Part shown: positions 19,274 through 54,586 of the stretch, piece by piece
How positions within the stretch are numbered: the stretch's first letter is position 1
Layout of the letters: the number at the start of each line of letters is the position of its first letter
NCBI GenBank assembly: GCA_015075175.1
Contig: JABTUV010000002.1
Location: 248,001 to 312,000, forward strand
DNA length: 64,000 nt
From: a bacterium
GTDB taxonomy: Bacteria; Hinthialibacterota; Hinthialibacteria; H5-UNCL2
Reading direction: 5' to 3'
Program-made: the position numbers and the translations under genes
Notes under the pieces: generated by a model
Told to the model about the DNA's origin: nothing
The model's database searches: none
The model's input: the letters and a program-made list of their open reading frames with translations, nothing else

Positions 19274-19304
19274 CCACCCGGAACCGGATGCGGTGCACTT
19301 TTTT

Positions 19305-35268: not shown

Positions 35269-35299
35269 TGGTATTACCAGATGCCCTGTGGCATTACCA
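35269..35299 (+). promoter_or_regulatory. Two operator-like palindromes before the propeller glycosidase gene
   Basis: TGGTATTACCA (35269-35279) and TGGCATTACCA (35289-35299) are spaced 20 bp centre to centre, about two helical turns, and end 36 bp before the start codon. They fit the TnGTnnnACnA consensus known for FadR-subfamily GntR regulators. A possible -10 (TACTAT) lies just downstream. Confidence 0.6.
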
Positions 35300-35335
35300 T
35301 ACTTTTGATACTATTTCTGTTCGACGGAGTGCAAC

Positions 35336-36307
35336 ATGACACGTGCAGCAACCACACAACGCCTCGTGAGGTTTCCACAGATCGACGGGGAGTGGTGGCC
35401 GGTCGCCGGCAACCCCATGGACCACAAGTACGCCACGGCAGACCAGGAGCCGGTGGATTTCGGCATCTGGCAGGCGGCTGACGGGACTTGGCAGATCTGG
35501 TCCTGCCTGCGTCGCACCACCGCGGGACGCGATCAAGGCGGCAAGGGGCGCGTTTTTTATCGTTGGGAGGGCCAGTCGCTGTTCGACACCGATTGGAAAC
35601 CCATGGGCATCGCCCAGGAGGCGCGAGTCGACCTGGGCGAGACTGCCGGCGGCCAGCAGGCGCCTCACGTCATCCGGGTCGGTGATACTTACCACATGTT
35701 TTACGGCGACTGGGAGAACATCTGCCATTCGGTGAGCCGGGACGGCAAGCACTTTGAGCGCGTGATCGGGTCCGACGGGACGGCCAAGGTCTTCAGCGAA
35801 GGCCCGGGATTCAACACCCGCGACGTCTGCATGTTGCTGCACGACGGACTCTGGTACTGCTATTACACGTGTCATCCCAATAACCAGGGCATGGTCATGG
35901 TGCGTACGAGTCGGGACCTTGAGAGCTGGTCGGACTCGAAGGTGGTCGCGTTCGGGGGCCAAGCGGGAACCAGCCTAGGCTCGATGGAGTGTCCGCACGT
36001 GGTCAAGCTGGGCGAGGACGAGTTCTATCTCCTGACGACCCAGAGCTACGGGGACTTCAGCGACGGCCAGATACGCAAGCGCGGCAAGCCCCAGACCAGC
36101 GTGTATGGGTCGTCGGATCCCACGTATTTCGGCATCAACCAGGACGCGAAGTATTGGCTTGGCCACCTGCCCGTGGCCGCGCCGGAGCTGGTCTTCTACC
36201 AAGGTCAGTGGTACCTGGCGGCGTTGAACGAGGGCGCCTTGGACGGTATCCGCATCGCCAGGTTGAAGTGGGTGGAAGCCCAACCATCGCCGCGCACGGT
36301 CGGCTAG
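35336..36307 (+). CDS. GH43/GH32-like five-bladed beta-propeller protein
   Basis: 323 residues from the ATG at 35336 (GGAG 6 nt upstream). No signal peptide is present, unlike most neighbours. Repeated propeller strands are visible: WQAADGTWQIWSCLRRT, QAPHVIRVGDTYHMFYGDW, DVCMLLHDGLWYCYYTCH, MECPHVVKLGEDEFYLLTTQ and APELVFYQGQWYLAALNEG. The repeated h-x-G-x-W/Y-Y/H-h pattern and acidic residues near strand starts match glycosidases and glycoside phosphorylases of the GH43/GH32/GH130 type, but the catalytic triad cannot be assigned by eye. Tandem TGGTATTACCA sites upstream imply repression by a GntR-type regulator. Confidence 0.75.
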   Translation: MTRAATTQRLVRFPQIDGEWWPVAGNPMDHKYATADQEPVDFGIWQAADGTWQIWSCLRRTTAGRDQGGKGRVFYRWEGQSLFDTDWKPMGIAQEARVDLGETAGGQQAPHVIRVGDTYHMFYGDWENICHSVSRDGKHFERVIGSDGTAKVFSEGPGFNTRDVCMLLHDGLWYCYYTCHPNNQGMVMVRTSRDLESWSDSKVVAFGGQAGTSLGSMECPHVVKLGEDEFYLLTTQSYGDFSDGQIRKRGKPQTSVYGSSDPTYFGINQDAKYWLGHLPVAAPELVFYQGQWYLAALNEGALDGIRIARLKWVEAQPSPRTVG

Positions 36308-36714
36308 TGCCGCTTCACAAGAAACAGTTGGCGGAAGGCTGAAACCTGGTGCTGGGGTCGCCGGTACTCGGGTGCGTGGAGGGGCGCCTTGGTTGCGGCT
36401 GTTTTCTTGAAAAAGGACCAGCGACGACGCAAGACCACCGCATCCTGTCCGCGAAGGGCTTGAACGCGGGCAGCCGCAAGTTGCAGCAGCGGCTGCCCAA
36501 CTCGCGTCCACGAGGGATGTTTCATGCTTCGGCCCGATTCGGCACGCCGCACTTTCTGTGCTTACCACAATTTAAATCGATAATTTTAAGATACTTATGA
36601 TTCATTCTGGGGTTCTTTTCCGCGCGGACGGCCCTCCCTTATTCACCTGCGTGGAGTTTGGCGGGAACTCCATGGGGTCTTTGATGGAATTTGCTTGACT
36701 TGGCCTGGAAGGAG
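36308..36714. other. Intergenic stretch with no recognisable gene
   Basis: About 400 bp. Open frames here lack protein-like composition and ribosome sites. The sequence turns AT-rich at 36565-36605. A -35-like TTGACT lies at 36695-36700, 17 bp before TAATAC, which overlaps the first operator palindrome. Confidence 0.5.
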
Positions 36715-36738
36715 TGGTAATACCACATGGTAATACCA
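36715..36738 (+). promoter_or_regulatory. Paired TGGTAATACCA operators before the third beta-helix gene
   Basis: Two perfect copies of TGGTAATACCA at 36715-36725 and 36728-36738, 13 bp centre to centre. With TTGACT at 36695-36700 the presumed -10 falls inside the first copy, so a bound protein would block RNA polymerase. The leader to the next start is about 195 nt. Confidence 0.65.
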
Positions 36739-36932
36739 GATTGCCTTGAACGTGGCGGTGAGCGGGATTCAGAAGTCGAAGGCGCGACGGGATCGAAGTC
36801 GAAGGTCCGGTTCTTGTGCGTCCAGGGACAACGATTCCGGCATTGCTTTCTGGGCGTGACGGAATGCCGCCCATCGGGTTCAATCCCTCAGTGCTGGGGT
36901 ATTGCGATCATTCGTTGCAGGGAGGAATCATC

Positions 36933-39910
36933 GTGAAGTTCTGCAGAAGAGTAACTTTCCTTTCGCTGCTGCTCATGGTAGGCCATGGGTTCTCGCAGAC
37001 GTCTACGTGGGGCCGGCCGGCAACGACGCCAATGACGGCCTTACTGCCGGAACCGCCAAGGCTACTTTCACCGGCGGAACCGGAGCGCTGTCGGTGCTGA
37101 ACGCGCAGCCGGCGGGGTCGGCGCTTCGGGTCCTTGGGGCGGTGACCGACAACGGCGTGGGCGCGGTGACGGCCGGCGGGGTGATTATCCGCTCCGATCC
37201 GCCCGGTTCGCGGTTCATCCTGAGCCAACTGGTGTTGACGGTAAACGCGGCCAACGTCACCATCCAGGACCTGGAATTCCAGGTCGGCTCGATGCACGAG
37301 GCGGCCATCGTGGTGGCCGCCAACGGTTGCACCATCCAGTCGTGCAGTTTCACGGGGGTGGCGCCCAACGGCGGTGAGACCTTCGTGATCGAGGACGAAG
37401 TGGCTCCCATCCAGGTAGTGGGCGCGGGGAACCTGACGGTGCGAAACTGCATCTTCACCGCCGATCAGGCGTGGGACTACTGCGTGGTCTTGTCGGACGC
37501 GGCGGGCGCGGCTTCGGGGATCACCTTCGACGGCTGCACCGTCAACTCCAACAACCTCACCGGCGGGCTGCGGGCCTATCGCGCCTACGATAACGTCCAG
37601 GTCACCAACTCCAACTTCATCACGATGCGCCGCGCCGCCTGGGAGTTCAGCTACATCTATCCCAACAGCCTGATCGATCCGGGAACCGCCAGTAACCTGC
37701 TGTTCCAGGACCTCAACATCACCGGCCACTCCGAGGGCGCCTCGTTTAACGCCGCTATTCACTTCCGCCAGTGCTCGGCGGAGAACATCCAGGTCCGCCG
37801 GGTCAACTTCTCGCAGATTTCCGGCAACGGTCAGGACGCCGTGCGCATCCACAACGCGACCGTGGACACCATCATACTGGATACCGTCGAATACACCTAT
37901 CCGCCCATCGGCAACAACGACTACTACATTCCGTTGACAATGGAAACCAACGTGAACGTCGTCAACGCCACCATCGTCAACTGCAGCTTCACCACGGCCA
38001 TCGCCTTCCGCTGCGACGACCAGGTGAACAACCTCAGCAACATGGTGATCAAGGATTCGGTGTTCACCAAGACGCCGTACCGCGCCGCCAACAACATGAT
38101 CCGCGTGCGCAGCACGTCGGTGCGGGGATGCACGATGGACAACGTGACCATCGTGGGGGACACGGGCGACGATCTGGTTTCCTTCTTCGGCAACCCGCTG
38201 CTGCGGGACCTGACCATCCGCAGATGCACCATTCGCGGCAATGCGGGCGACGAATCCATCGTGATCCTTGACGGCGCCGTGGCCAACGTTCTGATCGAGG
38301 ATTGCTCGACCAACGGCGACGGGCACGGCATCAGCATCAAGAACGGGGCGACCACGGTCAACGGCATCACGATACGCGGTTGCACCATTACGGCGCTGAG
38401 TAACGGGACGACCGACGCCGGGGCGATCTCGTTCAACGAACAAGGTTCCGGCGGTCCTACCCTAAGCAACGTCACGCTCGAGAATCTCTGGTTGTACGCC
38501 AATTTCGGCGTTTACGTGGAGGCGACCAACCTCAGCAACGCCGTCATTCGCAATACCGACATGAGGGGGGACGGGGTGGTGCGGCGGGGGCTGGAGATGC
38601 GCGGCAGCACGCTCACCAACGTCCAGCTTTCGGATCTGGTGCTGGTGGGCCGGGAGAACGGGCTGAATGTCAACGGCTGCGTCGGATCGGGTCTCTCGCT
38701 CACCAATGTCAGCGCGCTGCCCGACGCGGCGTCGTTTTCCGACAGCGGCCTGGAGATTGATTTCAACGGTGGGGGCGTCAGTATCAACGGCGCGATCGTC
38801 GACGGCGGCGGCACCGGGGCGGGGTTGGTGCTGGGCACGGGGGCCACGGCCGCCGGCGGCTGGACGGTGCAGAACGGCACGCTTTCCAACTGCGTCGGCG
38901 CTGGCCTCTTTGTGGGCAGCGCCCTCCAGAACAGCAGCTTCACCAACCTGGCCATCAGCAACAGCAGCGGCGCGGGCCTCCTCGTCGGCAACCGGGTGAC
39001 GGACTGTACCTTCACCAGCGTCAGCGTGGACGGCGTGACCGGCGGCCCGGGCATCATCGTCGACAATTCGACGGCGACCGGTGCGCAGAACATGGCGGCC
39101 AGGATCGCCTTCTTCGACTGCGCGGTGGATGGGGCCGACGGCATCGGCATCAACGTACAGGGCGTCGGCCACCGGGTCCAGGGCTGCACGGTCGAGAACG
39201 GCGGCAGCGACGGCATCGCGGCGACCGAGCCGAGCGGCATCCTCGCGGCCAACGCCGGCATCGCCATCGTCAGCAACACGGTGCGCGACTGTCCGCAGGG
39301 CGTGGCGGTGGCGCTGGAGGGAAAGAACTCGACCGTCGGATGGAATACTCTCTACCGCAACGGCGGCGGCATCCGCTTGCGTTCCGGCATCACCAGCGCG
39401 CGGGCCGGCAGCAGCAACACGACCAACAACAGCATCCTGCGCAACGCCGTGTACGGCGGGGCGGGTTCGGCCACGGGCATCTTCGAGACCTTCAACATTC
39501 AGGTGCCGGGCGACACCGGTCCGGGCAACAACGCCTACGTGAACAACACCGTCACCGACTGGGGCGGTCACGGCAGCGAGTTCATCGGCGCGGGCAACAC
39601 CATCCAGAACAACATCTTCGCTTTCAACGGCGGCTCGGGCCTGCGCGTCCTCAGTCTCACCGGTTTGACGGCGGGTTGGAATTGCGCGGCCATGAACGGA
39701 GGCGTTGACTTCGACGGCATCTCCGTCGACTACAGCAAGGACATCTGGTACGACCCCGACTTCGTCTCGCGCACTCCCGGAGCGGCGGGTTTCTATCGCC
39801 TGAGTCCCACCAGCGGCGCCCTTGACCGGGGGACCCCGGTGGGGACCGGCGTGGATCTCGGCGCTATCGAATCGGGCGCATCGGAGGTGCCATCATGGCG
39901 CGTGTACTAA
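36933..39910 (+). CDS. Secreted beta-helix protein (third), frameshift in the signal peptide
   Basis: GTG at 36933 follows GGGAGG by 7 nt and encodes a signal peptide, MKFCRRVTFLSLLLMVGHG. The mature sequence ADVYVGPAGNDANDGLTAGT lies in another frame, so one base is gained or lost near 36990. From there the frame is open to 39910 (about 970 residues). The body is one long stack of beta-helix coils rich in NVTI, NCSF and GCTI turns, with no Pro-Thr linker or NWIKG module. It ends GVDLGAIESG and a short tail VPSWRVY. The next beta-helix gene follows after 32 bp, so the two form an operon under the TGGTAATACCA sites. Possible roles are polysaccharide cleavage or surface binding. Confidence 0.8.
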
Positions 39911-39942
39911 GGCAGACGATGGACAAGGCGAGGGGAGGAACC

Positions 39943-42018
39943 ATGACCATGCAGAAACGAACCATGACTACCGGATGCGCGATTCTCGCGCTGCTCTTGG
40001 CGCTGCCGCTTCTCTGCGGCGCGACCACCTACTACGTGCGCACCGACGGCAACGACGGCAACGACGGACTGACCAACACGCCCGCGGGCGCCAAGGCCAC
40101 TTTCCAGAACCTCCTGGCGATGGGCGACGGGGACACCGTGGTGTTCGCGCCGGGAACCTACGACTCGGGAGGCGCCACTCATCTCATCTTTCGCGTCAAC
40201 GTCACCTTCCGCGGCTCCGATGCGGTCAACCGGGCGGTCCTGCGCAATCTCACGCTCAACCTGACCTCGACCGCCAATGGGGTTACGTTCGAGAACCTGG
40301 TGCTGGACGGGGCTTACTCGGTCCCCGACGTGTTTGCCCTGGACAACGGATGTTCCAACATTACGTTGCGCAACTGCGAAGTGCGGGACCCCTCGCTGGT
40401 CAACGTCGCCGACGCGCTGCGCCACGGCCTCATGGTGATTCAGGGCTGTACCAACCTCTTGGTGGAGAACTGCCGGTTCGCCGTCAACGCCAACGCGGAC
40501 ATCGGCAACCGCATCCACATGTTCATCGCGCACTACGATCCCTTCAACGCCAACGTCAACGCCAACTGGACCGTCCGCAACACGGCCTTCTACGCCACGC
40601 GCACGGTCTCGACCGACGCCGACTGCGCCGCCATTTATCTTTGGCACAACGTGTCCAACTTCCTCGTCGAGGGCTGCACCTTCGAGACGGTGGCGGAGGT
40701 GATGCGCATCGTTTCCACCGATGCCGGCGACCCTCCGCGGGTTTACAGCGGATTCACGTTCCGCAACAACGGAATTCAACGGGTGGAGGCGCTGCACGCC
40801 ATCTACATGGGTTCCAACAGCGTGTACGAGAACTTCGTCATCCGGAACAACTACGTGACCAACGCCGAGGACAGCTTCATTCACGTGCCCGGCGGGGGCA
40901 CGGCGGTGGTGGACGGGCTGGAGCTGTCGGGGAACGTTCTGGTGGACGTGGGGTACAACAACGACGGTACCGACCGCGCGCTGACCATGGACGAGGTCCG
41001 CATCAATCCCACGCCGGGCCGACGCGTGGTGATCCGCGACAACCGCTTCGTGCGTCCCAGCGTGGGAGCCGACGAGTGCGTGTGGTTGAACCTGGCGGGC
41101 GCCGGCGTGGACATCATCAACAACCGGTTGGGCAATTACACTTCGACGGCGCTCTTAATCGACGGGGCCGAGAGCCTGACGCCCAACGGCGCGCTCTCCG
41201 ACGTGGCGGTGACGGACAACGTGTTTCCCAACGCCAACGGGATCGCGCTGGCGGTGCGGGGCCTCAGCGAGTCGGTGGGCGGCGTTGTGATGGAGCGCAA
41301 CGTGGTCCAGGCGGCGGGCGGCTCGGGTATCGAAATCCGCAGCACCCTGGGGGCGGGCGGCGTCATCCGCAACAACACCATCTCCAACGCGGCCACCCAG
41401 GGCATCCGGGTTGCGGCCCCCGGCGTGCTCATTGCTTACAACGACGTCTTCGATTCCGGCAATGCCTCCGGCGCCGGCATCCTGCTCAACCAGTACAGCA
41501 ATCCCAGCGACGTCTCCAACTGCATCGTGTCGTACAACATCTGCGCCGGAAACCAGAGCTACGGCATCTCGCTGGATACCGTGCTGGCGGCCACCAGCCA
41601 GAACGTCACGGTGATGAACAACACCATGGCCAGCAACGTGAACGGCGGCATCCGTGTCGGGCTGAATAACTGCCACGTCTGGAACAATATCATCGCGTTC
41701 CACAGCGGCACGGGCCTGGCGTTCCAGGCGACCACGCCGGGAGCCATCGGCTACAACCTGCTGTATAACGTGTTGACCGGAGGAGCGGACTACTCGGGCT
41801 TCGTCTCGACTCCGCTGGCGGGGGATGTGTTGGCCAATCCGCAATTCGAGAACTTCGCGGCCCGTGACTACCATCTGCGGGCGAGCAGTCCGGCCATCGG
41901 GGCGGGCGCGGCCCGCAGCGGCGCCAATCTGGTCGCCAATGGCAGCGATCTGGGCGCCCTGCCGACGCAGGCGCAGAATCTGTCGCTGCCGACGTCCCAC
42001 TGGACGTTGTATCGCTGA
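39943..42018 (+). CDS. Secreted beta-helix protein (fourth)
   Basis: The start is the ATG at 39943, with GGGAGG 4 nt upstream, rather than the earlier in-frame ATG at 39895. The signal peptide reads TGCAILALLLALPLLCGA and is followed by TTYYVRTDGNDGNDGLTNTP, the same opening as the other three beta-helix proteins. About 691 residues of beta-helix coils follow (NITLRNCEV, NLLVENCRF, NWTVRNTAF, GGVIRNNTI), ending GSDLGALPTQ and a short tail LPTSHWTLYR. No catalytic residues are identifiable. It is the second gene of the operator-controlled pair. Confidence 0.85.
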   Translation: MTMQKRTMTTGCAILALLLALPLLCGATTYYVRTDGNDGNDGLTNTPAGAKATFQNLLAMGDGDTVVFAPGTYDSGGATHLIFRVNVTFRGSDAVNRAVLRNLTLNLTSTANGVTFENLVLDGAYSVPDVFALDNGCSNITLRNCEVRDPSLVNVADALRHGLMVIQGCTNLLVENCRFAVNANADIGNRIHMFIAHYDPFNANVNANWTVRNTAFYATRTVSTDADCAAIYLWHNVSNFLVEGCTFETVAEVMRIVSTDAGDPPRVYSGFTFRNNGIQRVEALHAIYMGSNSVYENFVIRNNYVTNAEDSFIHVPGGGTAVVDGLELSGNVLVDVGYNNDGTDRALTMDEVRINPTPGRRVVIRDNRFVRPSVGADECVWLNLAGAGVDIINNRLGNYTSTALLIDGAESLTPNGALSDVAVTDNVFPNANGIALAVRGLSESVGGVVMERNVVQAAGGSGIEIRSTLGAGGVIRNNTISNAATQGIRVAAPGVLIAYNDVFDSGNASGAGILLNQYSNPSDVSNCIVSYNICAGNQSYGISLDTVLAATSQNVTVMNNTMASNVNGGIRVGLNNCHVWNNIIAFHSGTGLAFQATTPGAIGYNLLYNVLTGGADYSGFVSTPLAGDVLANPQFENFAARDYHLRASSPAIGAGAARSGANLVANGSDLGALPTQAQNLSLPTSHWTLYR

Positions 42019-42101
42019 GAATGCGGGCAATCGCCGCAAAAAAAGCGCCCCGGCGATTCGCATCGCCTGGGCGCTCGCTTTATCGGGATGGGGCGGTCAG
42101 A

Positions 42102-42698
42102 CTAGAAGTCCTTGCGCGGATCGCGCGGCCCGAAGCGATAGATTTCGCCGCTGCTGATCAGGCCGTTGCTGACGTCGTAGGTGATCGCCCGCAGACGCCG
42201 AATCACCACGGGAGAGTACGGATAGTTGGTGGGGCTGTAGTTCTGTTCCTGGTCGCGATCCGGACCGACGCTGAGCAGAAACCAGTGGTCGGCGTTGACG
42301 TTGGCGAATCCCTCCGTCTTGAAGCGGATGTAGTCGTAAGCGCCGCGCCCTTCCGTGATCAGCGGCGGGTTCACGCAGATGCCGTCCCGGTCGCTGTCGC
42401 GCGGGCAGACGTCCCACGGCCAGAAGGCGTCGCGGGGCACTTGACTGATGTAGGCGACCGGACTGGTCAGGACGCCCAATTCGTGGAACCAGGTGCCGGA
42501 CCAGGCCTGGGGATAGTCGTCATGGTCGGTGCGATACGCCTCGATGGCGGTCGCCAGATTGGCGTGCTCCTGTTCCACCCTGGCGATGCGCGCGCGAATC
42601 TGCGCGTGCAGGAAATTGGGTACCGCAATCGCGGCCAGAATCGAGATGATGGCCACCACAATCAGCAGTTCGATCAGAGTGAATCCGCGACGATGCAT
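42102..42698 (-). CDS. Type IV pilin / type II secretion pseudopilin-like protein
   Basis: 198 residues with a prepilin leader MHRRG, peptidase cut before FTLIELLIVVAIISILAAIA, and Glu5 of the mature protein present. The helix continues VPNFLHAQIRARIARVEQEH. The C-terminal globular part has short beta segments and DRDGICVNPP. Proteins of this kind with the FLxAQxRA stretch are abundant in Sumerlaeota, Hydrogenedentota and Armatimonadota, and may assemble secretion filaments. AAGGAG lies 8 nt before the ATG. The promoter (TTGCAA, 17 bp, TAAAAG) overlaps operator-like palindromes, so it shares control with the exported glycan proteins. Confidence 0.88.
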   Translation of the reverse strand: MHRRGFTLIELLIVVAIISILAAIAVPNFLHAQIRARIARVEQEHANLATAIEAYRTDHDDYPQAWSGTWFHELGVLTSPVAYISQVPRDAFWPWDVCPRDSDRDGICVNPPLITEGRGAYDYIRFKTEGFANVNADHWFLLSVGPDRDQEQNYSPTNYPYSPVVIRRLRAITYDVSNGLISSGEIYRFGPRDPRKDF

Positions 42699-42777
42699 GA
42701 TGACGGCTCCTTTTCTTTCCGCCGACGACCCCTACGCGCGAACAGAAGCAGGACAGGAGGTAGGAAGCGCCACGAAT

Positions 42778-42824
42778 TGGTATTACCAGTAATTGGCGTC
42801 GATCTTTTACTACAGGTAAGACCA
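42778..42824 (-). promoter_or_regulatory. Operator palindromes and promoter of the pilin-like gene
   Basis: TGGTATTACCA lies at 42778-42788 and a weaker AGGTAAGACCA at 42814-42824, 36 bp apart. On the minus strand TTGCAA at 42833-42828 and TAAAAG at 42810-42805 are 17 bp apart, so the weaker site is in the promoter spacer and the perfect one is downstream of the -10. Confidence 0.55.
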
Positions 42825-43068
42825 GTTTGCAAGCTAAATTTTCGGTCGCGATGAATCGGGAGCATTGATGCGGGAAATGAATCAATTATACCAATCGATC
42901 GTGATGATACCGCCGCGGCCGGTTCCCCTCGGCCTCATGAGATGGAGTCTTCCGTGGTGGGGTTGGTGCACATTCGAGTCCGGGAGGTGGGTCGGTCCCG
43001 CCGCATCACGCCAGAGGAACGCTGGTACGAAGCACGGTGGTCTTCCGGGCGTGTCTTGTATCCGGGCC

Positions 43069-44370
43069 ATGATGCTGGTAATGGGCGTCTTCTGGGCGGG
43101 AGCGGTCACAGCCGCGGAGCCACCCGAGCTCGAAGGCGACTATCTGTTGGCTCCCGATACCGTGTTTTCGATCACACGGGCAGGCCCACGCCTGTACGGC
43201 TGCCTGACGGGTTGGGCCACACCCGAGGTGATGCAGGCTTCGGCTTCTACCTGGTACTTGCCTGCCTATGATACCACGCTCCGGTTCCGGCGCGAGGCCG
43301 GGAAGGGAGCGCCGCACCCGCTGGTCGAGCGATACCGGGAGACCGCGATGGGACGGCCGACCGGCGGCAGCCATTGCGCCTGGCCCACCGGCGTGAGCGT
43401 GGAGGCGCGCCTGCTGCGCGCGATTCCCGCCTACATGGCCCGCTACCATTGTCCCGCGGTCTCACTGGCGATCATCAGGCAGCGGGCGATCGTCTGGCAT
43501 CACGAGTTCGGCGTTCAGGCGGCGACGCGGCCGGTACGCATCGACGAGAATACCGTGTTTGAAGCGTGCAGCATGGGCAAGGCGCTTTTCGCCTATCGCG
43601 CGCTCATGCTGGTGGATGCCGGCCGGCTCGACTTGGATCGTCCCCTGAACGAGTATCTGACCGCGCCTTGGGCCCCGGAGGCGCCGGAAACGGCGCAAAT
43701 CACGGCGCGCATGGCGCTCCAGCACACCACCGGCCTGCCCAACTGGAGAAGCGGCCGATTGCGCATGGTCGCTCCGCCGGGCCGGAGACACACGTATTCC
43801 GGCGAGGGGATCACCTTCCTGCAAAGAGTCGTTGAAACGCTCTGCGGAAGGCCGATCGACGAGCTCATGCGCGACGATCTCCTGCAACCGCTGGGTATGC
43901 GGCGAAGCAGCTACCGCTGGCGTGAGGAATACGGCGCCAACCAGGCGCTGGGCCATGACCCGCTGGGCCGGTGCAGGGCAGGGAGGCGTTTTCTGCGCGC
44001 CAATGCGGCCAGCACGCTTTACTCGACGCCGCTGGATTTTGCCCGCTATCTCCTGTTGATGATGGATCCGCGTCCGCCGGCGGCCTTGGCGATTTCCCAC
44101 CAGCTGAGAAACGAGATGCTCTCGCCGCGCGCCCTTCCGAGCGGCCAAGTCACTTTCGGGCTGGGCTGGGAGCTGTACCGCGAGTCGGGCGAGCGGATCT
44201 GCTACGTCTTTCACGTCGGGGCCAACAAGGGATTCCGCTGCCAGGCCCGTTTTTATCCCGAGACGGGCGACGGGCTGGTCATCATGACCAACAGCGACAA
44301 CGGCCGGGACCTGTACGAGAGGGTCATCGAGATGGTTTTTCCCTCTTCGATCCCCCGCGCAGGACATTGA
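43069..44370 (+). CDS. Secreted serine hydrolase of the beta-lactamase / class C PBP family
   Basis: The frame is open from 42865, but a signal peptide (MMLVMGVFWAGAVTA) starts at the ATG at 43069, giving 433 residues. The catalytic S-x-x-K is in FEACSMGKALFAYRAL; the Y-x-G/N element is YSGEGITFLQRVVE, with HTTGLPNW between them, as in esterase EstB and D-aminopeptidase-like members. FHVGANKGFRCQARFYPETG corresponds to the third conserved element (H-x-G). The preceding ~100 residues form a small beta-rich domain. Likely activity is an esterase or peptidase outside the cell; beta-lactam hydrolysis is not implied. Confidence 0.8.
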   Translation: MMLVMGVFWAGAVTAAEPPELEGDYLLAPDTVFSITRAGPRLYGCLTGWATPEVMQASASTWYLPAYDTTLRFRREAGKGAPHPLVERYRETAMGRPTGGSHCAWPTGVSVEARLLRAIPAYMARYHCPAVSLAIIRQRAIVWHHEFGVQAATRPVRIDENTVFEACSMGKALFAYRALMLVDAGRLDLDRPLNEYLTAPWAPEAPETAQITARMALQHTTGLPNWRSGRLRMVAPPGRRHTYSGEGITFLQRVVETLCGRPIDELMRDDLLQPLGMRRSSYRWREEYGANQALGHDPLGRCRAGRRFLRANAASTLYSTPLDFARYLLLMMDPRPPAALAISHQLRNEMLSPRALPSGQVTFGLGWELYRESGERICYVFHVGANKGFRCQARFYPETGDGLVIMTNSDNGRDLYERVIEMVFPSSIPRAGH

Positions 44371-44411
44371 TCTAAAATCAAGTTCGGTCCGTGATTTTTT
44401 TCAACTCCTGG

Positions 44412-44450
44412 TTGACTTATATTAATCGTATGGATAAACTGGTCATATCA
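44412..44450 (+). promoter_or_regulatory. Promoter of the desaturase fusion gene, with a degenerate operator
   Basis: TTGACT (44412-44417), 17 bp, TAAACT (44435-44440), followed at once by TGGTCATATCA (44440-44450), which keeps most of the TGGTnnnACCA pattern with one mismatch. The patch is AT-rich. It lies 150 bp before the start codon. Confidence 0.5.
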
Positions 44451-44600
44451 GTTCAGGTGGTGCGTGGAGCGATGACGCGTGCGGACGAGGACAGGTTCAG
44501 CCGCAACGCGGCAGGCTTGTCCTGAAGCCGCAGTTCATGGAAGCGTCGGCCCCCCGCGCCGCACATCCGATCCGGAAGGAGTACGAGGAGAAGCTCATCT

Positions 44601-46895
44601 ATGGCTACAGTGATGGAGCCGCCTGCCCGCGAAGAGTTCAAACCCGGGCGTTACAGCTTGGTGGGAGAAAACAGCCGGCGAGCCGTGGAGCTCGGCCTGG
44701 CGGAGGCTGAGTGGTACACCTCCCCGATTTCGCGCGAGGTGCTGCGGGAGCTTCTGGAACGGCGGGATGGCCCGCCCCTTCGGGATACGTTCATCTGGGT
44801 GAGCGCGTTGGCGCTGTTCGGCGGACTGGGTTACGCGCTCTGGCCCTCTCCCCTGGCCCTGCTGCCGTTTCTGGCTTACAGCGTGCTCTATCGCTCCACC
44901 GCCGTAGCGCGCTGGCACGAGACGGGCCACGGGACCGCCTTCCGCACCGACTGGCTGAACGTGGTCATGTACCACATTACCTCCTTCATGATCATGCGCG
45001 AGCCGCACGTCGCGCATTGGAGCCACACCCGCCACCACAGCGACACGACCATCGTGGGACGTGATCCCGAGATCGGCATCCCGCGTCCTCCCAATCCCCG
45101 CAAGGTGCTTTACGCGCTGACGGGCTTCCCGCAGATGCGCAATTACTTCAACAAGATGAAGCGCTATTCGCTGGGCAACCTCAACAAGGCCGAATTGACG
45201 TTCGTGCCCGAATCCGAGCATCGCAAGATCTTCCGGACGGCGCGCATCCATCTCACGATCTACGCTCTCGTGATTCTCTCGTGTGTGTACTTCTGGAGCC
45301 TTCTGCCGCTCTTCTACGTCGGCCTGCCGGGAATTCTCGGTGCGTGGCTGGCGCCCATCTTCAGCCTTACCCAGCACGCCGGTCTGGCCGAGAACGTGCT
45401 CGACCATCGCCTCAACTGCCGCACCATCCTGATGAACCCGATCAGTTGCTTTCACTACTGGAACATGAACTACCACGTCGAGCACCACATGTTTCCCCAG
45501 GTACCGTACTACAACCTGCCGCGGCTGTTCGAGCTGGTGAAGCACGACATGCCGGAGCCGTACCACGGCTTGTGGGAGGCGTGGCGCGAGATCATCACCA
45601 CCATGCGCCGGCAGCTGAAGGACCCGGCGTACTTCGTGAAGCGGAGAATCCCGACGCCGACCATTCCGCACCTGGCCAACGTCGCGGCCAAGACCATCGT
45701 GTGCCGCAGCGAGGCCGACGCGGAGGGTTGGGTGCGCGTGTGCGGCAGTGACGAACTGGATTTTGAGGACGTGCTGCGATTCGACCATGCGGCAAGGACG
45801 TATGCCCTCTATCGCGCCGCGGACGGGCGGTATTACGCGACCGTCGTGATTTGCACCCACGGCAACACCCATCTGGCGACCGGGTTTATGAAGGGACACG
45901 TGATCGAGTGCGCCAAGCACGGCGGCCGCTTTGACGTGCGCGACGGTTCCCCGCGGCGGGCGCCGGTGTGTGTGGCCCTGCGGACCTATCCGGTTCGGGA
46001 GAGCGACGGAAATTTGTACCTGAACGTGTCCGAGGCCGAGGACCAAGGCCGGCGCGAGACCCGATACCGGTTTCGCGTGCTGCGCAACCAAAACGTGGCC
46101 ACGGTCATCAAGGAACTGGTGGTCGAGCTGACGGACGACTCGCCGCCGCTGGAGTATCGTCCCGGCCAGCACGTGCAGATGCTGATCCCGCCGTACGAAC
46201 GCATCTCATTCCGGGATTTGGACGTGTGCATGCCCTACGCCGAGGTCTGGGAGGCGCAGCACGTGTTCGACTTTGAGGCGACCAACCCGACGGCGTTGCG
46301 GCGCAACCTGTCCTTGGCGGGCAATCCGGCGGTGGAGAAGCGGGTATTGCGCTTCAACGTGCGCATCGCCACGCCGCCGCGCGGGCAGGACTGCAGCGCG
46401 GGGGCCGGCTCCAGCTACCTCTGGAGCCTGAGACCCGGCGACACGCTCACCGCCGTCGGTCCCTTCGGGGACTTTCTCATCAAGGACACCAACCGCGAGA
46501 TGGTCTACCTGGGTGGCGGCTCCGGCATGGCTCCGCTGCGCTCGCACCTGTCGTATCTGTTCGAGACGCTGAAAACCGGGCGCAGGGTGAGCTACTGGTA
46601 CGGCGCGCGGGCGCGCCAGGAGTTGTTCTACCTGGATTACTTTCAGGACCTGGCGGCGCGGTTTCCCAACTTCTCTTTCCATCCGGCCCTGTCCGAGCCT
46701 TTGCCCGACGACGCCTGGGATTCGCACACCGGCCTCATTCACGAGGTGCTCTCGCGCGAGTATCTCGCCCATCATCCCGATCCGACGGCGATCGAGTATT
46801 ATCTCTGCGGTCCGCAGCCCATGGTCGTGGCGGCGCGCCGGATGCTGTCGGCCGTGGGCGTCCCGCCCGAGCAGATCGCGTTCGACGAGTTTTAA
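44601..46895 (+). CDS. Tripartite fusion: membrane fatty-acid-desaturase-type oxygenase, Rieske ferredoxin, NqrF-like reductase
   Basis: 764 residues. Domain 1 (about 1-350) has hydrophobic helices and three histidine boxes, HETGH (106-110), HTRHH (142-146) and HVEHH (292-296), which bind a di-iron centre. Domain 2 (about 362-475) is a Rieske 2Fe-2S ferredoxin: C418-x-H420 and C437-x2-H440. Domain 3 (about 485-764) resembles the FAD/NADH part of NqrF: RFNVRIATPPRG, GSSYLWSLRPGD, GGGSGMAPLRSH, WYGARARQELFY, YYLCGPQPM. NADH electrons could thus pass through FAD and Rieske to the di-iron site in one chain. Separate homologues occur as MocD, MocE and MocF in rhizopine catabolism. Substrate unknown. 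Confidence 0.85.
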   Translation: MATVMEPPAREEFKPGRYSLVGENSRRAVELGLAEAEWYTSPISREVLRELLERRDGPPLRDTFIWVSALALFGGLGYALWPSPLALLPFLAYSVLYRSTAVARWHETGHGTAFRTDWLNVVMYHITSFMIMREPHVAHWSHTRHHSDTTIVGRDPEIGIPRPPNPRKVLYALTGFPQMRNYFNKMKRYSLGNLNKAELTFVPESEHRKIFRTARIHLTIYALVILSCVYFWSLLPLFYVGLPGILGAWLAPIFSLTQHAGLAENVLDHRLNCRTILMNPISCFHYWNMNYHVEHHMFPQVPYYNLPRLFELVKHDMPEPYHGLWEAWREIITTMRRQLKDPAYFVKRRIPTPTIPHLANVAAKTIVCRSEADAEGWVRVCGSDELDFEDVLRFDHAARTYALYRAADGRYYATVVICTHGNTHLATGFMKGHVIECAKHGGRFDVRDGSPRRAPVCVALRTYPVRESDGNLYLNVSEAEDQGRRETRYRFRVLRNQNVATVIKELVVELTDDSPPLEYRPGQHVQMLIPPYERISFRDLDVCMPYAEVWEAQHVFDFEATNPTALRRNLSLAGNPAVEKRVLRFNVRIATPPRGQDCSAGAGSSYLWSLRPGDTLTAVGPFGDFLIKDTNREMVYLGGGSGMAPLRSHLSYLFETLKTGRRVSYWYGARARQELFYLDYFQDLAARFPNFSFHPALSEPLPDDAWDSHTGLIHEVLSREYLAHHPDPTAIEYYLCGPQPMVVAARRMLSAVGVPPEQIAFDEF

Positions 46896-46969
46896 CGCCG
46901 GGATACAGGCGGGAAGAGAGAAGACTCGCGGAAGGTTCCTGGGGCTCTGGGCGTCGCAGCTCGCGCCGT

Positions 46970-47395: not shown

Positions 47396-47714
47396 AGAGC
47401 ACTTCTCCCTCCAGGGCGGCGGGCCTTTCGATAGTTCCAACGACTTCCTTGCGCCAGGCGAATTCCTCCGGGGTGGTGACCAGAATATCCTTGGGAATCC
47501 GCAGGTCGTGCAGCGCTATCCCGATCTCGACCGCCTTGTCGCGCTTGGAGCCTTCGATAGGAAGCACGACCAGAAGGTCCACGTCGCTGTCCACACCGGC
47601 GGTTCCCGCGGCCGTGGAGCCGAACAGGATAACCTGCTCCGGATGGAACCGCTCCACGATGCGGTTCACCATCTCGTTGATCTTTTCCGCCGCGGGACCT
47701 TTGCGCCAGTCCAC
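47382..47714 (-). CDS. Minimal nucleotidyltransferase (MNT) of the HEPN-MNT pair
   Basis: 110 residues from GTG 47714 with AAGGAG 7 nt upstream. The catalytic motif is complete: G32-S33 in LFGSTAAGTAG and D44-x-D46 in VDSDVDLLVVL. MntA-type proteins neutralise HEPN toxins by adding AMP; others have unknown targets. Gene order MNT then HEPN with a short overlap is the usual arrangement. Confidence 0.85.
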   Translation of the reverse strand: MDWRKGPAAEKINEMVNRIVERFHPEQVILFGSTAAGTAGVDSDVDLLVVLPIEGSKRDKAVEIGIALHDLRIPKDILVTTPEEFAWRKEVVGTIERPAALEGEVLYVRR

Positions 47715-47854
47715 GACTGTCTCCTTGAGAGGCCTCGGCGCCCGTAGCGAGCACGTCTTGCTCCTGTCGTCACAGGATACAAAACGCCGGTCCGGTTTAC
47801 AAGGACGTGAATCGCACGCCTCCGGGATGGACGTCCCGCCATGCGCGGTTTGCG

Positions 47855-48751: not shown

Positions 48752-48769
48752 AGAGACCTCCGGCCCGTT

Positions 48770-49858
48770 CTACACACGAATCGGGTACGTGCCGTGCTTG
48801 AGGCACGCCTGGTTCATGGCCACGTAGTTCTCGAAGGGGACGTAATCCGGGATGGAATTGCCCGAGCCCAGGCAAAATCCGCCGCCGGGAGCGACTTCGC
48901 GCAACAGCCGCTTCACCTCCTCCTCCACCTGCGCGGGCGTACCCAGCGCAAGCGGACCGGTAAGGCAAAGGTTGCCGATGAGGCAGAGCTTGTTGCCGTA
49001 GCGCTCCTTCACTTCGCGGATGTCCATCGCCAGCGCCTCGACGGGATGGATGGCATTGACGCCGCAGGCGATGATGTCGTCCATCACCTCCCAAAGGACG
49101 CCGTCGGTGTGGTAGATGAGGGGGGCGGAGCGGCTGCGCGCGATCTCGGCCAGCTGCTCCAGCCAGGGGAAGTGATATTTGCGCAGAATCTCGGGCGCCA
49201 CGAACAGGCTGGTGCGAAAGGCGATGTCGTCGTTATACACAACGGCGTCGACGAAGTCATAGGACGCCATTTTGCGCCAGACTTCCAACATCATTTCGCC
49301 CGCGCGGTTCCAGACCGCCTCCACGAGTTCGGGATTGTCGTAGAGCGTGAGGCTGAAAGTCTCCAGCCCCATGAGCCGCCACGTCCGCGTGAAGATCTGA
49401 CCATACTGCGCGATGACGCCCATGCCGGGAGGCGGAGATCGCCCAACTCGTCGAAGGTGAGAAGTTCATGTGCTCGGGGCCGGGCCAGACGAACTCCTCG
49501 AGCTCCTTCCAGTTGGTGATGATGCCTTGCCTTCTTCGGCCCAGTTGCGGCCGGTGCTGTTTTCACGGGACTCGCCGGCGGGCACGCGGCCGGCCGGGTT
49601 CTCGTTGATGCCGGGAATCAGCTTGATGTAATCGTAACCGGCGCGATACCAGAACTCGACCCGGTCGGCCATGGTCTTGACGGGCCGGCCGATCACCTTC
49701 TCGGGAACGCTCTTGTGGAACCAGAAGTCCGCCAGGGGGACGGCGTCAGGCTCGCCCTCCAGAAGGAGCATCCGGCGCACGCGCGAGAAGTCCGGCGCCC
49801 GCCCGCAGCGGTCGATGATGGCTCCGGCGCCGTAGGTCGTCTGGGATGTTGCGGTCAT
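48770..49858 (-). CDS. Uroporphyrinogen-decarboxylase-like (URO-D/MtaA) protein, frame breaks
   Basis: ATG at 49858 with GAGG upstream. N-terminal RVRRMLLLEGEPDAVPLADF with RVEFWYRAGYDYIKLIPG, then after a frame break near 49520 IITNWKELEEFVWPGPEHMN, and after another near 49445 FDELGDLRLP and GVIAQYGQIFTRTWRLMGLE to the end (EEEVKRLLREVAPGGGFCLG, MNQACLKHGTYPIRV). The TIM-barrel family includes haem-pathway HemE and corrinoid methyltransferases; the divergent, non-haem members in polysaccharide or demethylation loci are more similar to this one. About 360 residues are expected once the frame is restored. It follows the S9 peptidase gene by 9 bp. Confidence 0.8.
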
Positions 49859-49867
49859 TTTTTTTCC

Positions 49868-52057
49868 TCACTTGTCGGGCCGGCGGCCCAGTTTGCGGTC
49901 GAAGAAATCCACCAACGTGCACACGAGGTGGATGCGTTCACGCTCGCGCGTGATCCCGTGGCTCTCCTTGGGGTAGAAGAGCACCTCGAAACGCTTGTTC
50001 AACTCGATCAGCTTCTGCGTGAGCTGGACCGTATCCTGAAAGAGCACGTTGTCGTCCTGCATGCCGTGAATCATCAGGAGGTGGTCGGAGAGGCCGCCGG
50101 CATGATGGATGGGGCTGGTGAGCCGGTAGGTCTCGCTGGCGTCCCCGGGGGTGTCCAGGCGCTGGCCGGTGTAATGGTAGTTGTAGTTGGTCCAGTCGTT
50201 GACGGGAGCGATCGAGACGCCCGCCCGGAAGACGCCGGGATGCTGAAAGAGCACCATGTGCGTGAGGAAGCCGCCGTAGCTGTGGCCCCAAAGGCCCATA
50301 CGTTCCGGATCCACGTAGTCCTTCTTCTTGAAGTACTCGGCGGCGAGCACGCACTCGGAGGCGTCCACAATTCCCAGGTTGCGATAATAGCCGCGCGCGA
50401 AGGCCTCGCCGTAACCCTGGCTGGCGCGCAGGTCCAAGTTGACGATGATGGTTCCGCGCTGTGCCATCCAGTGGTTGAGGATGCGCCCCCAGTCGTCCTT
50501 GGCGCTGTTGGCGTAGAGCTCGGAGAACACGACCGGATGGCGTTGACCGGGCTTCATGTCGGGGGGCAGAAAGACGCGCGCCCAGAGGGTCGTCCCGTCG
50601 GGATTGGGAATCTGCATGAAGACGGGCTGAATCAAGGGCACGCGCTCAAAACCCGGTTGCGGCGAGCGCGTGATACGGCGTTGCCGCCCGGGACGGCGAT
50701 GATCCACGAGATACAGCTCGGGCGGGCGGGTACTGCTGCTGGAGACGAGGAGACTGTAGCGTCCGTCCGCGCTGCCGACCGCCGAATTGCGTCCGTCCAG
50801 ATCGCCCAGGCGGACCGGTTCCCGATCGGGCTGTGGCAGATCCAAAAGGAAAACGCTGAGGTCCACCGGCCGCGGGCGCCAGGCGGAGAAGATCACGCGG
50901 TTCCTGTCGGCGAGCGCGCTGAAATCCGCCACGTCACACTCGCCCGGCGTCAGGTCCGCGAGCTGGTGCGTCGCATCCAGCGGCAGGCGATAGAGATGGT
51001 TCCAGCCGCTCCGCCCCGACAGGAAGAGCAGAGAGCCGCCGTCCGCGCTCCACTGCACATCCCGCTCGGCGATCCAGGTCTCGCTGGTTTCCGAGTAGAC
51101 CTGGTCGGCCTTCAAGGTCCGGGCGTCGATGAGGAGAATCCGGCGGGTCTTGAAATCGCGGCTGACTTGATTGCAGGCGATCCATCGGCCGTCCGGGGAG
51201 ACATCGGCGTCCCAATGGACTTCGCTCTTGTCCGCCTCGAACCAGCGGATGAGGCCGCCCGTCGCGTGAACGACGCCCACGCGATGCACGGCGCCCGGCT
51301 CGCCGGCGTTGGCGCGACGCTCGCGCCGGTACGTGACTTGGCGCGGCAGGTAATCGGGAATGATGATCTCTTTCTCGTGGCTCTTGTCACGCTCGACCAC
51401 GAGCAGGCGCCGGCTGTCGGGAAACCAGTCGTAACCCACGATCTCCCTGCCCTCGGCGACGCTGGTCCGTTGCGCCAGACTTCCCTCGCGCAGGTTGAAG
51501 AGCCAGAGGTTGCGGTCGCGCAGATAGGCGAGACAGCGGCCATCGGGCGACCAGGCGACGCCGCTTTCCGACCCGACGGTATCCAGGAGGCGTCGTGGGC
51601 GCGCGCCGGGCCGCGCTTCGACCAGCCACAGGTCGCCCAGGTACACGAAAGCGATCCGCCGCCCGTCGGGACTCCAGGCGTAGTCGCCGATACCGCTCGA
51701 CTCTTGTTGATCCCGGAGGCGTTGCTCCCGACTGCGCGTGTCGCCCTCGCGCTCCGGCGCCAGGACCGGCATCATATCCGTCAGTCGAACGTACTTCCCG
51801 GCGGCGCTGTCTCCCAGGTAGAGATCCAGAAAGCGCTCTCCCCGCTCATTCCAAAGGAAGGCGAAGCGGCCGCTCTCGCGCCGGGGAAAGCGCGCCCGGC
51901 CGGGCGCCGTGCCCCACAAGGCCGGGCGCGCATGGAGGCGCTCCAGCGTCAGCTCCTCCGTCGCCTCCCGCGGATATGACGGATCGACACCGGCCGCAGC
52001 CAGTGCCGCCAGGATCATCAGGACGAACGGCGATCCGCAACGGTTCAGTCGTCTCAT
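49868..52057 (-). CDS. Exported S9-family peptidase (dipeptidyl-peptidase IV-like)
   Basis: 729 residues with a signal peptide (GSPFVLMILAALAAAG). The N-terminal two-thirds is an eight-bladed propeller with repeated WSPDGR/ASPDGRWIAC units (GDYAWSPDGRRIAFVY, GVAWSPDGRCLAYL). The C-terminal alpha/beta hydrolase has the triad in LWGHSYGGFLTHM (Ser), HGMQDDNVLFQ (Asp) and YPKESHGITRERE (His). Such enzymes release dipeptides or cut short peptides. It sits between the peptide-binding protein gene (7 bp upstream) and the URO-D-like gene, which points to combined uptake and digestion of peptides. Confidence 0.9.
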   Translation of the reverse strand: MRRLNRCGSPFVLMILAALAAAGVDPSYPREATEELTLERLHARPALWGTAPGRARFPRRESGRFAFLWNERGERFLDLYLGDSAAGKYVRLTDMMPVLAPEREGDTRSREQRLRDQQESSGIGDYAWSPDGRRIAFVYLGDLWLVEARPGARPRRLLDTVGSESGVAWSPDGRCLAYLRDRNLWLFNLREGSLAQRTSVAEGREIVGYDWFPDSRRLLVVERDKSHEKEIIIPDYLPRQVTYRRERRANAGEPGAVHRVGVVHATGGLIRWFEADKSEVHWDADVSPDGRWIACNQVSRDFKTRRILLIDARTLKADQVYSETSETWIAERDVQWSADGGSLLFLSGRSGWNHLYRLPLDATHQLADLTPGECDVADFSALADRNRVIFSAWRPRPVDLSVFLLDLPQPDREPVRLGDLDGRNSAVGSADGRYSLLVSSSSTRPPELYLVDHRRPGRQRRITRSPQPGFERVPLIQPVFMQIPNPDGTTLWARVFLPPDMKPGQRHPVVFSELYANSAKDDWGRILNHWMAQRGTIIVNLDLRASQGYGEAFARGYYRNLGIVDASECVLAAEYFKKKDYVDPERMGLWGHSYGGFLTHMVLFQHPGVFRAGVSIAPVNDWTNYNYHYTGQRLDTPGDASETYRLTSPIHHAGGLSDHLLMIHGMQDDNVLFQDTVQLTQKLIELNKRFEVLFYPKESHGITRERERIHLVCTLVDFFDRKLGRRPDK

Positions 52058-52064
52058 AGGCTTC

Positions 52065-54233
52065 TCAGTTCCCCTCCGAGTGTTCCAGTTCCCAACTCAG
52101 ATAGTCAAAGTCCATGTCGTACACCTTGACGTTCTTGATCCGTCGATTCAACACCCACCGCCAGTTGTGGCTGTAGGTGAACGTGTAGGGTTGCTCCTCC
52201 CAGATGCGGCGATGCAGCTGACGGAAGATCGCCGTGCGCTTCTCCTTGTCCAGCTCCTGGCGGGCGGCTTCCAGGAGACGATCGGTGACGGGATCGTTGA
52301 AGCGGCCGTAGTTGAATCCGTCCTTGCTCTGAGTGCTGTGGAAGAAGGGGGTGGGATCATGGTCGATGTCCAGGTCCCAGGCGCCGCTGGTGGCGTCGAA
52401 GTCGCCGTCGCGCAGCCAGGTCAACTGGATCGCCGAACCGACGGTGCGGATGGTGCACTCGACTCCGACCTTGGGACAGTTGCGCTGCAGCGAGAGCGGA
52501 ATCCAGTTGTCCTGAACGGACAGGGAGGAGCCGCCCCAGAGCACTTCGAAGGAGAACACTTCACGCAGATTGCCCTTCTCGTCGAGGGGCTCCTTGCTGA
52601 TCTTGCCATCGCCGTTCAGGTCCTTGTCGCGGATGCCGTCCCCGTCATGGTCGATCCAGCCCGCTTCGTCCAGGAGCCGGGCCGCCTTCTCGGGACTGTA
52701 TTCGTAGAGCGGCAGGCTGGAGTCGTAGGCCGGACCCTTCCAGAAGTGGGGTCCCGTGATGGGCTTGTTGATGTCCTCCTGTAGATACAGAAGCGCGTTT
52801 TTGACGTCGATGAGATGGGACATGGCCTGGCGGCAGCGTTTGTCGGAAAAGAAAGAGCGATCGCAGTTGTAGCTGACAAAACCGTAGCCGGGCTGATAGT
52901 AATCGACCTTGCGAAAGTGCTTGTCGAACTCCGGTCCGACGCACTTGCGGGTATAGGTCCAGACGCTGGCCGTGATCAGGTCCAGATCGCCCCGGCGAAA
53001 CACCTGGAAGGCGACGACCCCGTCTCCGATGATCCTGAAGACGATGCGCTTGATGGCCGGCTTCTTTCCCCAGTAGTCCTCCCATCGTTCCAGCTCGATC
53101 AGGTTGCCGCGGTCCCAGCGCACGAACTTGTAAGGTCCCAGGCCCAACGGCACGTCCCTGCGGGGATGTGTCATGAAGTCCTGCCCGCGATAATAGTGTT
53201 CCGGGACCAGGCGCAGTTGACCGGCATTGGGGAGGTTTTCGTAGTTCTTGCGGGGAAAATGAAAGCGCACGGTATGGGCGTCCGGGCAGGTCAGCTGCAC
53301 GTCGTCAACCCACGCCAGACAGAGGTGAACAACCTCGGGCAACGGCTCCGCCTCGTCCAACTTGAAGAAAGGCCGAAGGGGAAGCAGGCCCTCGATGAAG
53401 TCCTCGCCCACCGCGAACGTGGCTGAGTCCAGGTTCCCGTCGGAGACGTACCAGCCGGAGGGTCCGGGAAAGAGGTTCCCGCAGTCGGCCAGCAGAAAGT
53501 CGCTCGCTTCGGCGATTTCGGCGCCGGGGGCGTAGCGCGTCAGGGCGCCCGGGTAGTTGGCGAGGAAAATGCTCGTATCGTGCCGCGCCAAGCGCGTCCC
53601 CGCCAGGTAGAGGTTGCCGTCAAGTAGGGCGGCATACAGACTGCCGCTGGCGCTCTCGGCCACTCGGGCCGCCGCCGGCTCGACTTCGCCATCCATCCTC
53701 GGAGCCGACTCCAACACCGGCAGCCGGTCCAGGCGTACTTGGAGAAACTGCGCCGGTCCGATGCTCTCTGCAATCTCGGCTTCCGGCAGAATGGCGACGA
53801 AACGGCTGTCCAGGTAGTTGGCGCGCGCGTGGCCGGCCCTTACCTGCGGGTTCATCACCGTCAGGAACGAGAACCGCGCGTCCTCGGCGTCGAATGGCTC
53901 GCCGTCGTGCCAGCGCACGTCCCGGCGCAGGTAAAACGTATAGTCCAGGCCGTCCGGCGAGATGTCCCACGCCGTGCACAGCCGGGGAACGTAGTCGCCC
54001 CGCTCCAGGTCCCATTCCACCATGTAATGGTTGAGATACTGCATGGCCCAGCGGGCGGTGCGGCCCACGCCCAGGATCGCATTGAGATAGGGGGGGTCGT
54101 CGCCTACATGGCGGCGCAGCGTGTTGTCCGTGCGGTGGTGGTAGGTGGGTTCTCCCGTCCCCACCTTGGACGCAAGCCACACGAACAAGAGGCCCAGAAG
54201 CGCAAGGACGAGGGCGGTGCGAAGGACTCTCAT
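52065..54233 (-). CDS. ABC transporter substrate-binding protein, family 5 (peptide/nickel type), with an inserted domain
   Basis: The start is probably the ATG at 54233 (MRVLRTALVLALLG), giving 722 residues with a membrane-anchor or signal helix. Family 5 hallmarks are LCTAWDISPDGLDYTFYLRR with WHDGEPFDAEDARFSF, LGLGPYKFVRWDRGN, and CDRSFFSDKRCRQAMSHLID. At about 700 residues it is longer than typical DppA/OppA (about 530). The excess includes a ~110-residue insertion (about 180-290: GSLYAALLDGNLYLAGTRLA, FLADCGNLFPG-like segments) and a calcium-loop-like DHDGDGIRDKDLNGDGK. No permease or ATPase is adjacent. A TGGTATTACCA site precedes the promoter. Confidence 0.85.
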   Translation of the reverse strand: MRVLRTALVLALLGLLFVWLASKVGTGEPTYHHRTDNTLRRHVGDDPPYLNAILGVGRTARWAMQYLNHYMVEWDLERGDYVPRLCTAWDISPDGLDYTFYLRRDVRWHDGEPFDAEDARFSFLTVMNPQVRAGHARANYLDSRFVAILPEAEIAESIGPAQFLQVRLDRLPVLESAPRMDGEVEPAAARVAESASGSLYAALLDGNLYLAGTRLARHDTSIFLANYPGALTRYAPGAEIAEASDFLLADCGNLFPGPSGWYVSDGNLDSATFAVGEDFIEGLLPLRPFFKLDEAEPLPEVVHLCLAWVDDVQLTCPDAHTVRFHFPRKNYENLPNAGQLRLVPEHYYRGQDFMTHPRRDVPLGLGPYKFVRWDRGNLIELERWEDYWGKKPAIKRIVFRIIGDGVVAFQVFRRGDLDLITASVWTYTRKCVGPEFDKHFRKVDYYQPGYGFVSYNCDRSFFSDKRCRQAMSHLIDVKNALLYLQEDINKPITGPHFWKGPAYDSSLPLYEYSPEKAARLLDEAGWIDHDGDGIRDKDLNGDGKISKEPLDEKGNLREVFSFEVLWGGSSLSVQDNWIPLSLQRNCPKVGVECTIRTVGSAIQLTWLRDGDFDATSGAWDLDIDHDPTPFFHSTQSKDGFNYGRFNDPVTDRLLEAARQELDKEKRTAIFRQLHRRIWEEQPYTFTYSHNWRWVLNRRIKNVKVYDMDFDYLSWELEHSEGN

Positions 54234-54373
54234 CGTCAAGACCTTCCAGATGAACATGAGACGCAATTGCGACGGGTTTGGGGCTGTCGGGTCAAGCTTC
54301 TCCCGGTGCGTTTGGCTCGGCGAACAGGTACTCCTGTATCCACGACCGCGACTCCAAGCCCTTGATTTGAAGG

Positions 54374-54416
54374 AAACTAGCGCATAGTATGGGCTGCGTC
54401 AATAGTGGTATTACCA
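54374..54416 (-). promoter_or_regulatory. Promoter and operator of the peptide-binding operon
   Basis: TGGTAATACCA (minus strand, 54416-54406) lies 3 bp before TTGACG (54402-54397); a -10-like TAGTTT (54379-54374) follows after 17 bp. The palindrome touches the -35, so the regulator could activate or repress. The same palindrome is seen at 35269, 36715, 36728 and 42778. Confidence 0.55.
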
Positions 54417-54425
54417 GTCATTAGC

Positions 54426-54518
54426 GCGGCCAAGAAATACCTGAATTGGGAAGCCGGGCGCAAGCGCAGCACACTACGCGACTACGGGGTTTCGGTGCCA
54501 CATAAATTATTGCCGCGG
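54426..54518 (-). repeat. Dispersed repeat, inverted copy of the 3811/59065 element
   Basis: GCGGCCAAGAAATACCTG, then TTGGGAAGCCGGGCGCAAGC, a degenerate GCGCAGCACACTACGCG palindrome, and GGTTTCGGTGCCA. In reverse complement it aligns along its length with 59065-59148. Confidence 0.65.
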
Positions 54519-54575
54519 TAATTATACACGACTTGTGCGATCGGTGGTGATTCCGGTGCAAAACGTCCGCCAAAC

Positions 54576-54586
54576 TTGTAATACCA
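54576..54586 (+). promoter_or_regulatory. Operator-like half-degenerate palindrome before the papain-like protease gene
   Basis: TTGTAATACCA keeps the right half and spacing of the TGGTAATACCA sites. It lies 77 bp before the start codon at 54663. Confidence 0.4.

Follow-up and report, generated by a model that had tools for sequence, protein, structure and literature searches.

A palindromic operator marks the scattered promoters of a probable sugar/glycan regulon and points to a candidate FCD-type GntR regulator

FCD-type GntR regulators such as PdhR, LldR, FadR and the GntR1/2 proteins of Corynebacterium glutamicum combine a GntR wHTH with an FCD domain and use operators of the type TNGTNNNACNA, the consensus of the FadR subfamily (PMC2230225). 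One regulator of this kind serves several scattered promoters, including those of neighbouring genes. In Escherichia coli, NanR binds GGTATA direct repeats, its operator lies downstream of the polymerase-binding site, and a single sugar regulon comprises several operons (PMC8012715). Clusters for the sulfo-transketolase pathway contain SqvD and SqwGH (PMC9594981). In the 64-kb stretch of DNA analyzed here (the window) and in the 4.98 Mb genome to which it belongs, a 15-letter palindrome with the core TGGTAWTACCA is found at promoters of some eleven groups of genes at scattered loci. Architecture and operator type are those of FCD regulators, but the genes controlled (propeller glycosidases, beta-helix/pilin cassettes, peptide uptake, and a desaturase fusion) are unlike those of the known members. 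The data give good support for a new regulon of a known kind, whose regulator and inducer we infer below.

That the palindrome is a real operator is nearly certain. The window contains five exact copies, where 0.00 are expected from 100 shuffles, and 13 matches with up to two mismatches, where 3.5 are expected; the two-mismatch matches at 1487, 5665, 32892 and 34759 resemble background. The five perfect palindromes of the original prediction (35269, 36715, 36728, 42778 and 54406) and its near copies (35289, 42814, 44440 and 54576) were all recovered, and 9/9 of these sites lie outside predicted genes, as it had stated. Extended to 15 letters, the consensus reads ACTGGTAWTACCAGT. When the window was scanned with a 15-mer matrix built without its own sites, from seven sites elsewhere in the genome, the top eight hits were the 15-mers starting at 36713, 36726, 35267, 42776, 42812, 44438, 54404 and 54574, all intergenic; rank 9 falls inside a gene and the site at 35287 follows at rank 11. 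The promoter assignments proposed earlier need two amendments. The pair at 42778/42814 is flanked by the pilin gene and by a serine hydrolase gene that had not been listed, and the sites at 54406 and 54576 belong to a divergent pair of units, with the SBP_bac_5/S9-peptidase operon on the minus strand and the papain-like gene on the plus strand.

Operator sites (15-mers) and target genes in the window
Feature	Coordinates	Strand	Remarks
Operator CCTGGTATTACCAGA	35267..35281		at +1 of propeller-gene promoter TTGACG-N17-TAGGGT
Second, weaker operator TGTGGCATTACCATA	35287..35301		20 bp downstream of 35267 site
Propeller glycosidase-like protein, five-bladed, GH43/GH32/GH159-type fold	35336..36307	+	structure model, alignment, paralogues
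Operator AGTGGTAATACCACA	36713..36727		-10 box TAATAC within site; promoter TTGACT-N17-TAATAC
Second operator CATGGTAATACCAGA	36726..36740		13 bp beyond 36713 site
Large repeat protein, cassette gene 1	36902..39910	+	no Pfam match; beta-helix-like via 36%-identical L117 beta-helix paralogue
Right-handed beta-helix protein, cassette gene 2	39895..42018	+	PF13229; L117 paralogue 44% identical
Prepilin-type pilin-like protein	42102..42698	-	PF07963; 51% identical to pilin of paralogous operon
Operator ATTGGTATTACCAGT	42776..42790		between pilin (-) and serine hydrolase (+)
Second operator ACAGGTAAGACCAGT	42812..42826		within spacer of possible pilin promoter
Exported class C beta-lactamase-fold serine hydrolase	42865..44370	+	PF00144, E 4.6e-48
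Operator ACTGGTCATATCAGT	44438..44452		-10/+1 of desaturase-fusion promoter, TTGACT-N17-TAAACT
Fatty-acid-desaturase/Rieske ferredoxin/NqrF-like reductase fusion protein	44601..46895	+	
Prolyl-oligopeptidase/DPP-IV-type S9 peptidase	49868..52057	-	PF00326, PF00930
Peptide-type extracellular solute-binding protein SBP_bac_5	52065..54266	-	PF00496, E 6.4e-64
Operator AGTGGTATTACCAGT	54404..54418		adjoins -35 box of SBP_bac_5 promoter
Operator ACTTGTAATACCAGT	54574..54588		upstream of papain-like gene
Exported papain-like cysteine protease	54663..55457	+	weak cathepsin K matches, E 4e-4

A scan of the genome for intergenic and coding copies, as suggested with the original prediction, found nine exact sites, 9/9 of them intergenic, against one match to the reversed control pattern; equal frequency inside genes was not observed. 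The exact sites outside the window (C1:391934, C2:98492, C12:330570 and C48:18851; 4/4 intergenic) comprise two before propeller paralogues, one before a DUF2961 protein and one between beta-helix and solute-binding-protein genes. With up to two mismatches, the 15-mer occurs at 13 places, 11 in promoter regions and 2 inside genes, and adds two promoter sites, C1:622051 and C45:243314, the latter ahead of the gene for a large exported protein. The exact 11-mer sites 36713, 36726 and C12:330568 have three mismatches to the 15-mer and were tallied separately. At three mismatches the genome-wide count was not enriched over the control (44 vs 78) and weaker sites are not claimed. Weaker sites on C34, C23, C11, C2 and C1 could not be distinguished from background. 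C8:56565, C47:130709 and C1:322362 lie within genes and were treated as chance. Outside the window, the operator precedes both other propeller paralogues, a paralogous beta-helix/beta-helix/pilin operon, an isomerase/symporter/transketolase/epimerase operon, and the genes for the DUF2961 protein and the large exported protein. No bacterial operator with this exact 11-mer came up in a literature search.

Duplicated genes within the genome allow a comparison of operator and surrounding DNA. A beta-helix/beta-helix/pilin operon paralogous to the window cassette lies at C12:324342-330339. The encoded proteins share 36, 44 and 51% identity and the upstream DNA just 27%, the level of unrelated sequence, yet the operator matches at 15/15 positions. 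In the C12 cassette the three genes are co-directional behind a single operator pair, whereas in the window the pilin gene is inverted and has an operator pair of its own (42776, 42812), as expected of selection for co-regulation. Judged from these alignments, the operator is strongly conserved between ancient paralogues. Between 36902 and 37010, a signal-peptide-like start (GTG at 36933) is out of frame with the mature part of the first cassette protein; both share one frame in the L117 paralogue, and the shift may reflect an error in the sequence or a genuine interruption of the frame.

The propeller gene is likewise preceded by the operator in all copies (3/3, one in the window and two elsewhere). 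Its model (pLDDT 90) matched enzymes of GH43, GH32 and GH159 with Z scores of 24-25, and D41, R162-D163 and E218-C219 are invariant across 17 sequences. The positions of D41, D163 and E218 fit the Asp/Asp/Glu triad of GH43/GH32-type propellers and these residues could be catalytic. The window protein scores 24.8 for GH32N (cut-off 22.1) and 25.4 for GH43 (cut-off 32.2); the two paralogues remain below both cut-offs.

Conservation upstream of orthologues, the other check proposed earlier, gave a different outcome when run on the propeller gene: orthologues in three class relatives and 11 other genomes, which extend to other phyla and are all distant, have no exact or one-mismatch site upstream. 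Among the 13 remaining genomes of the class, the 11-mer palindrome stays at control level, the best match to the candidate regulator described below is only about 33% identical and not a close orthologue, and the FCD genes of class relatives have no TGGTNNNACCA nearby. None of the relatives searched belongs to the same genus. The wiring of the regulon looks lineage-specific, or the compared genomes are too distant to reveal it.

The position of the operator within the promoters bears on its mode of action. In 8/12 promoters the start of a TTGAC lies 20-36 bp ahead of the 11-mer, compared to 1.9% at random positions. The -10 box is thus just ahead of the operator or within it, for example at 36713 (TTGACT-N17-TAATAC) and C12:330570 (TTGACA-N17-TAATAC). 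An operator spanning the -10/+1 region suits a repressor, and putative repression is the best reading of this arrangement. At the SBP and papain-like promoters the site lies off -10/+1; the one at 54404 abuts the -35 box.

The regulator gene had been expected outside the window, and a candidate is found at C1:622230-622979. No other GntR gene of the genome is clearly of the FCD type (FadR/NanR subfamily). The matches of its product to PF00392 (65.6 bits) and PF07729 (93.4 bits) both exceed the cut-offs and place the protein in the FadR/FCD subfamily; a second FCD match is weak and lies within a 1124-residue frame. Further GntR-like genes are two of the GntR-LacI type and two UTRA-like ones, an intact GntR and a broken gene. 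The DeoR gene at 4136-4804 of the window gave a weak score with the GntR model, but the protein is DeoR and it was discarded. Divergent from the FCD gene is a five-gene operon encoding a FucI/SqvD-like isomerase, an SSS symporter, a two-part transketolase and a TIM-barrel epimerase. The divergent promoter region contains TGGTAAGACCA, while TGGTAWTACCA occurs at the other targets, and the operator ACTGGTAAGACCAGC comes 5-7 bases after TTGACA-N17-TATGGT, the promoter of the isomerase gene. Near the start of the FCD gene lies what seems to be a separate promoter for it (TTGACA-N17-TTAAAT). The expectation of a GntR/FadR gene with its own site is therefore borne out in that the divergent region carries one, but the site overlies the isomerase promoter, and control of the isomerase operon is better supported than autoregulation. 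At the neighbour and target promoters alike the sites agree with TNGTNNNACNA, in line with the predicted FadR-subfamily consensus (PMC2230225), and could be bound by the FCD protein, which is the probable regulator of the palindrome sites. Open frames downstream of the FCD gene (L114 13483-15407) resemble NHL repeats by eye, and a second FucI-like isomerase gene (L195, C1:222469-223856) has in-frame stop codons and is apparently broken.

From the computed sites, their promoter positions, the link between paralogues and the site beside the FCD gene we infer binding, repression and an inducer. In the likely model, ACTGGTAWTACCAGT acts as operator for a sugar/glycan-utilization regulon with scattered promoters, which the FCD-type GntR protein represses by binding at -10/+1 until released by a sugar. 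A dimer would bind the palindrome across -10/+1 and block RNA polymerase. The inducer would be a sugar or sugar acid on which the adjacent isomerase/symporter/transketolase operon acts; its binding to the FCD domain would cause the dimer to leave. This would switch on the isomerase operon, the three propeller glycosidases, the DUF2961 protein and the two beta-helix/pilin cassettes, together with the large exported protein, the serine hydrolase, the desaturase fusion and the peptide-uptake unit.

Other explanations can be considered. With the genome about 84% complete, the gene for another regulator could be absent from it, and a real operator and regulon might be served by a different transcription factor, encoded in the missing part or by one of the other GntR-type genes. 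The latter have no exact or one-mismatch 11-mer site nearby, only the FCD gene has a site within its divergent promoter region, and GT-N3-AC has the 3-base spacing typical of FadR-subfamily operators, which makes a different factor unlikely. We give similarly little credence to a dual regulator that represses from sites over -10/+1 and activates from sites upstream of -35, as at the SBP/S9 and papain-like units. The site at 54404 abuts the -35 box of the SBP promoter, that at 54574 seems to precede a weak -35 box, and C. glutamicum GntR1/2 repress some promoters and activate another (PMC2230225). However, the promoters at 54404 and 54574 are consensus guesses only, and a site abutting -35 is also compatible with repression. 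Function as a small RNA hairpin in 5' leaders, instead of as a DNA operator, would explain a perfect inverted repeat close to transcription starts, but is very improbable: the stem would be just 4-6 bp, and the palindrome would not be transcribed at 36713 and the L008 site, where the -10 box lies inside it, or at 54404, where it precedes the -35 box.

Repression by the FCD protein remains the preferred reading, and the range of targets indicates what it may respond to. The original prediction proposed a switch for a whole exoprotein programme, which is too broad: the operator covers one DUF2961 gene among about 18 and two pilin-like genes among about 40, and an intracellular sugar-catabolism operon is included. 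Such selective coverage, together with that operon, fits a sugar/glycan-utilization regulon better than a general exoprotein switch. With the resemblance of the propellers to GH enzymes, it suggests a single class of glycan or sugar as the common theme, and not exported proteins at large. D-arabinan or fucose was considered as substrate in view of the FucI-like isomerase, DUF2961 and the proximity of the propeller to GH159, but the evidence is too weak. Peptide scavenging enters the regulon through the SBP_bac_5/S9-peptidase unit, probably an operon with a gap of 8 bp between the two genes, and the papain-like gene, whose product has a Cys in the context QGKRPTCGTF and a His and Asn downstream. 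The serine hydrolase probably starts near 43069, according to the codon model. An obvious role within the sugar/glycan scheme is absent for the desaturase-Rieske-reductase fusion; its NqrF-like part corresponds to FAD/NAD reductase domains, and the protein is apparently a self-sufficient oxygenase or desaturase.

The best NCBIfam match of the candidate regulator is E. coli NanR, with 132 bits under a cut-off of 260. Placement of the operator downstream of the polymerase site and a multi-operon sugar regulon are shared with NanR. The sites, however, are palindromes, single or paired with variable spacing, and not GGTATA direct repeats, and no sialic-acid genes were noticed beside the candidate. 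The neighbour operon resembles sulfo-transketolase clusters in that a FucI/SqvD-type isomerase adjoins a two-part transketolase, but its five genes include no counterpart of SqvB, SqwI or SqwF, and the isomerase scores 72 bits with the SQ isomerase family, far below the cut-off of 700.

A genome that lacks close relatives in the collections searched thereby obtains a testable regulon with an operator and a candidate regulator. By singling out genes that work together, including the few pilin-like and DUF2961 genes and other exported proteins, the regulon narrows the substrate. More tentatively, and with considerable doubt, we suggest that an FCD-GntR sugar sensor couples intracellular sugar catabolism to the duplicated beta-helix/pilin cassettes in this uncultured lineage, in which case the pilin-like proteins would belong to an inducible device for glycan capture instead of a general pilus. 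The 5 Mb genome has about 40 pilin-like genes with a prepilin N-terminus (42 matches genome-wide). At 16412-23324, the window also contains two very large adjacent genes (947 and 1243 codons), the N-termini of which resemble the beta-helix cassette proteins by eye.
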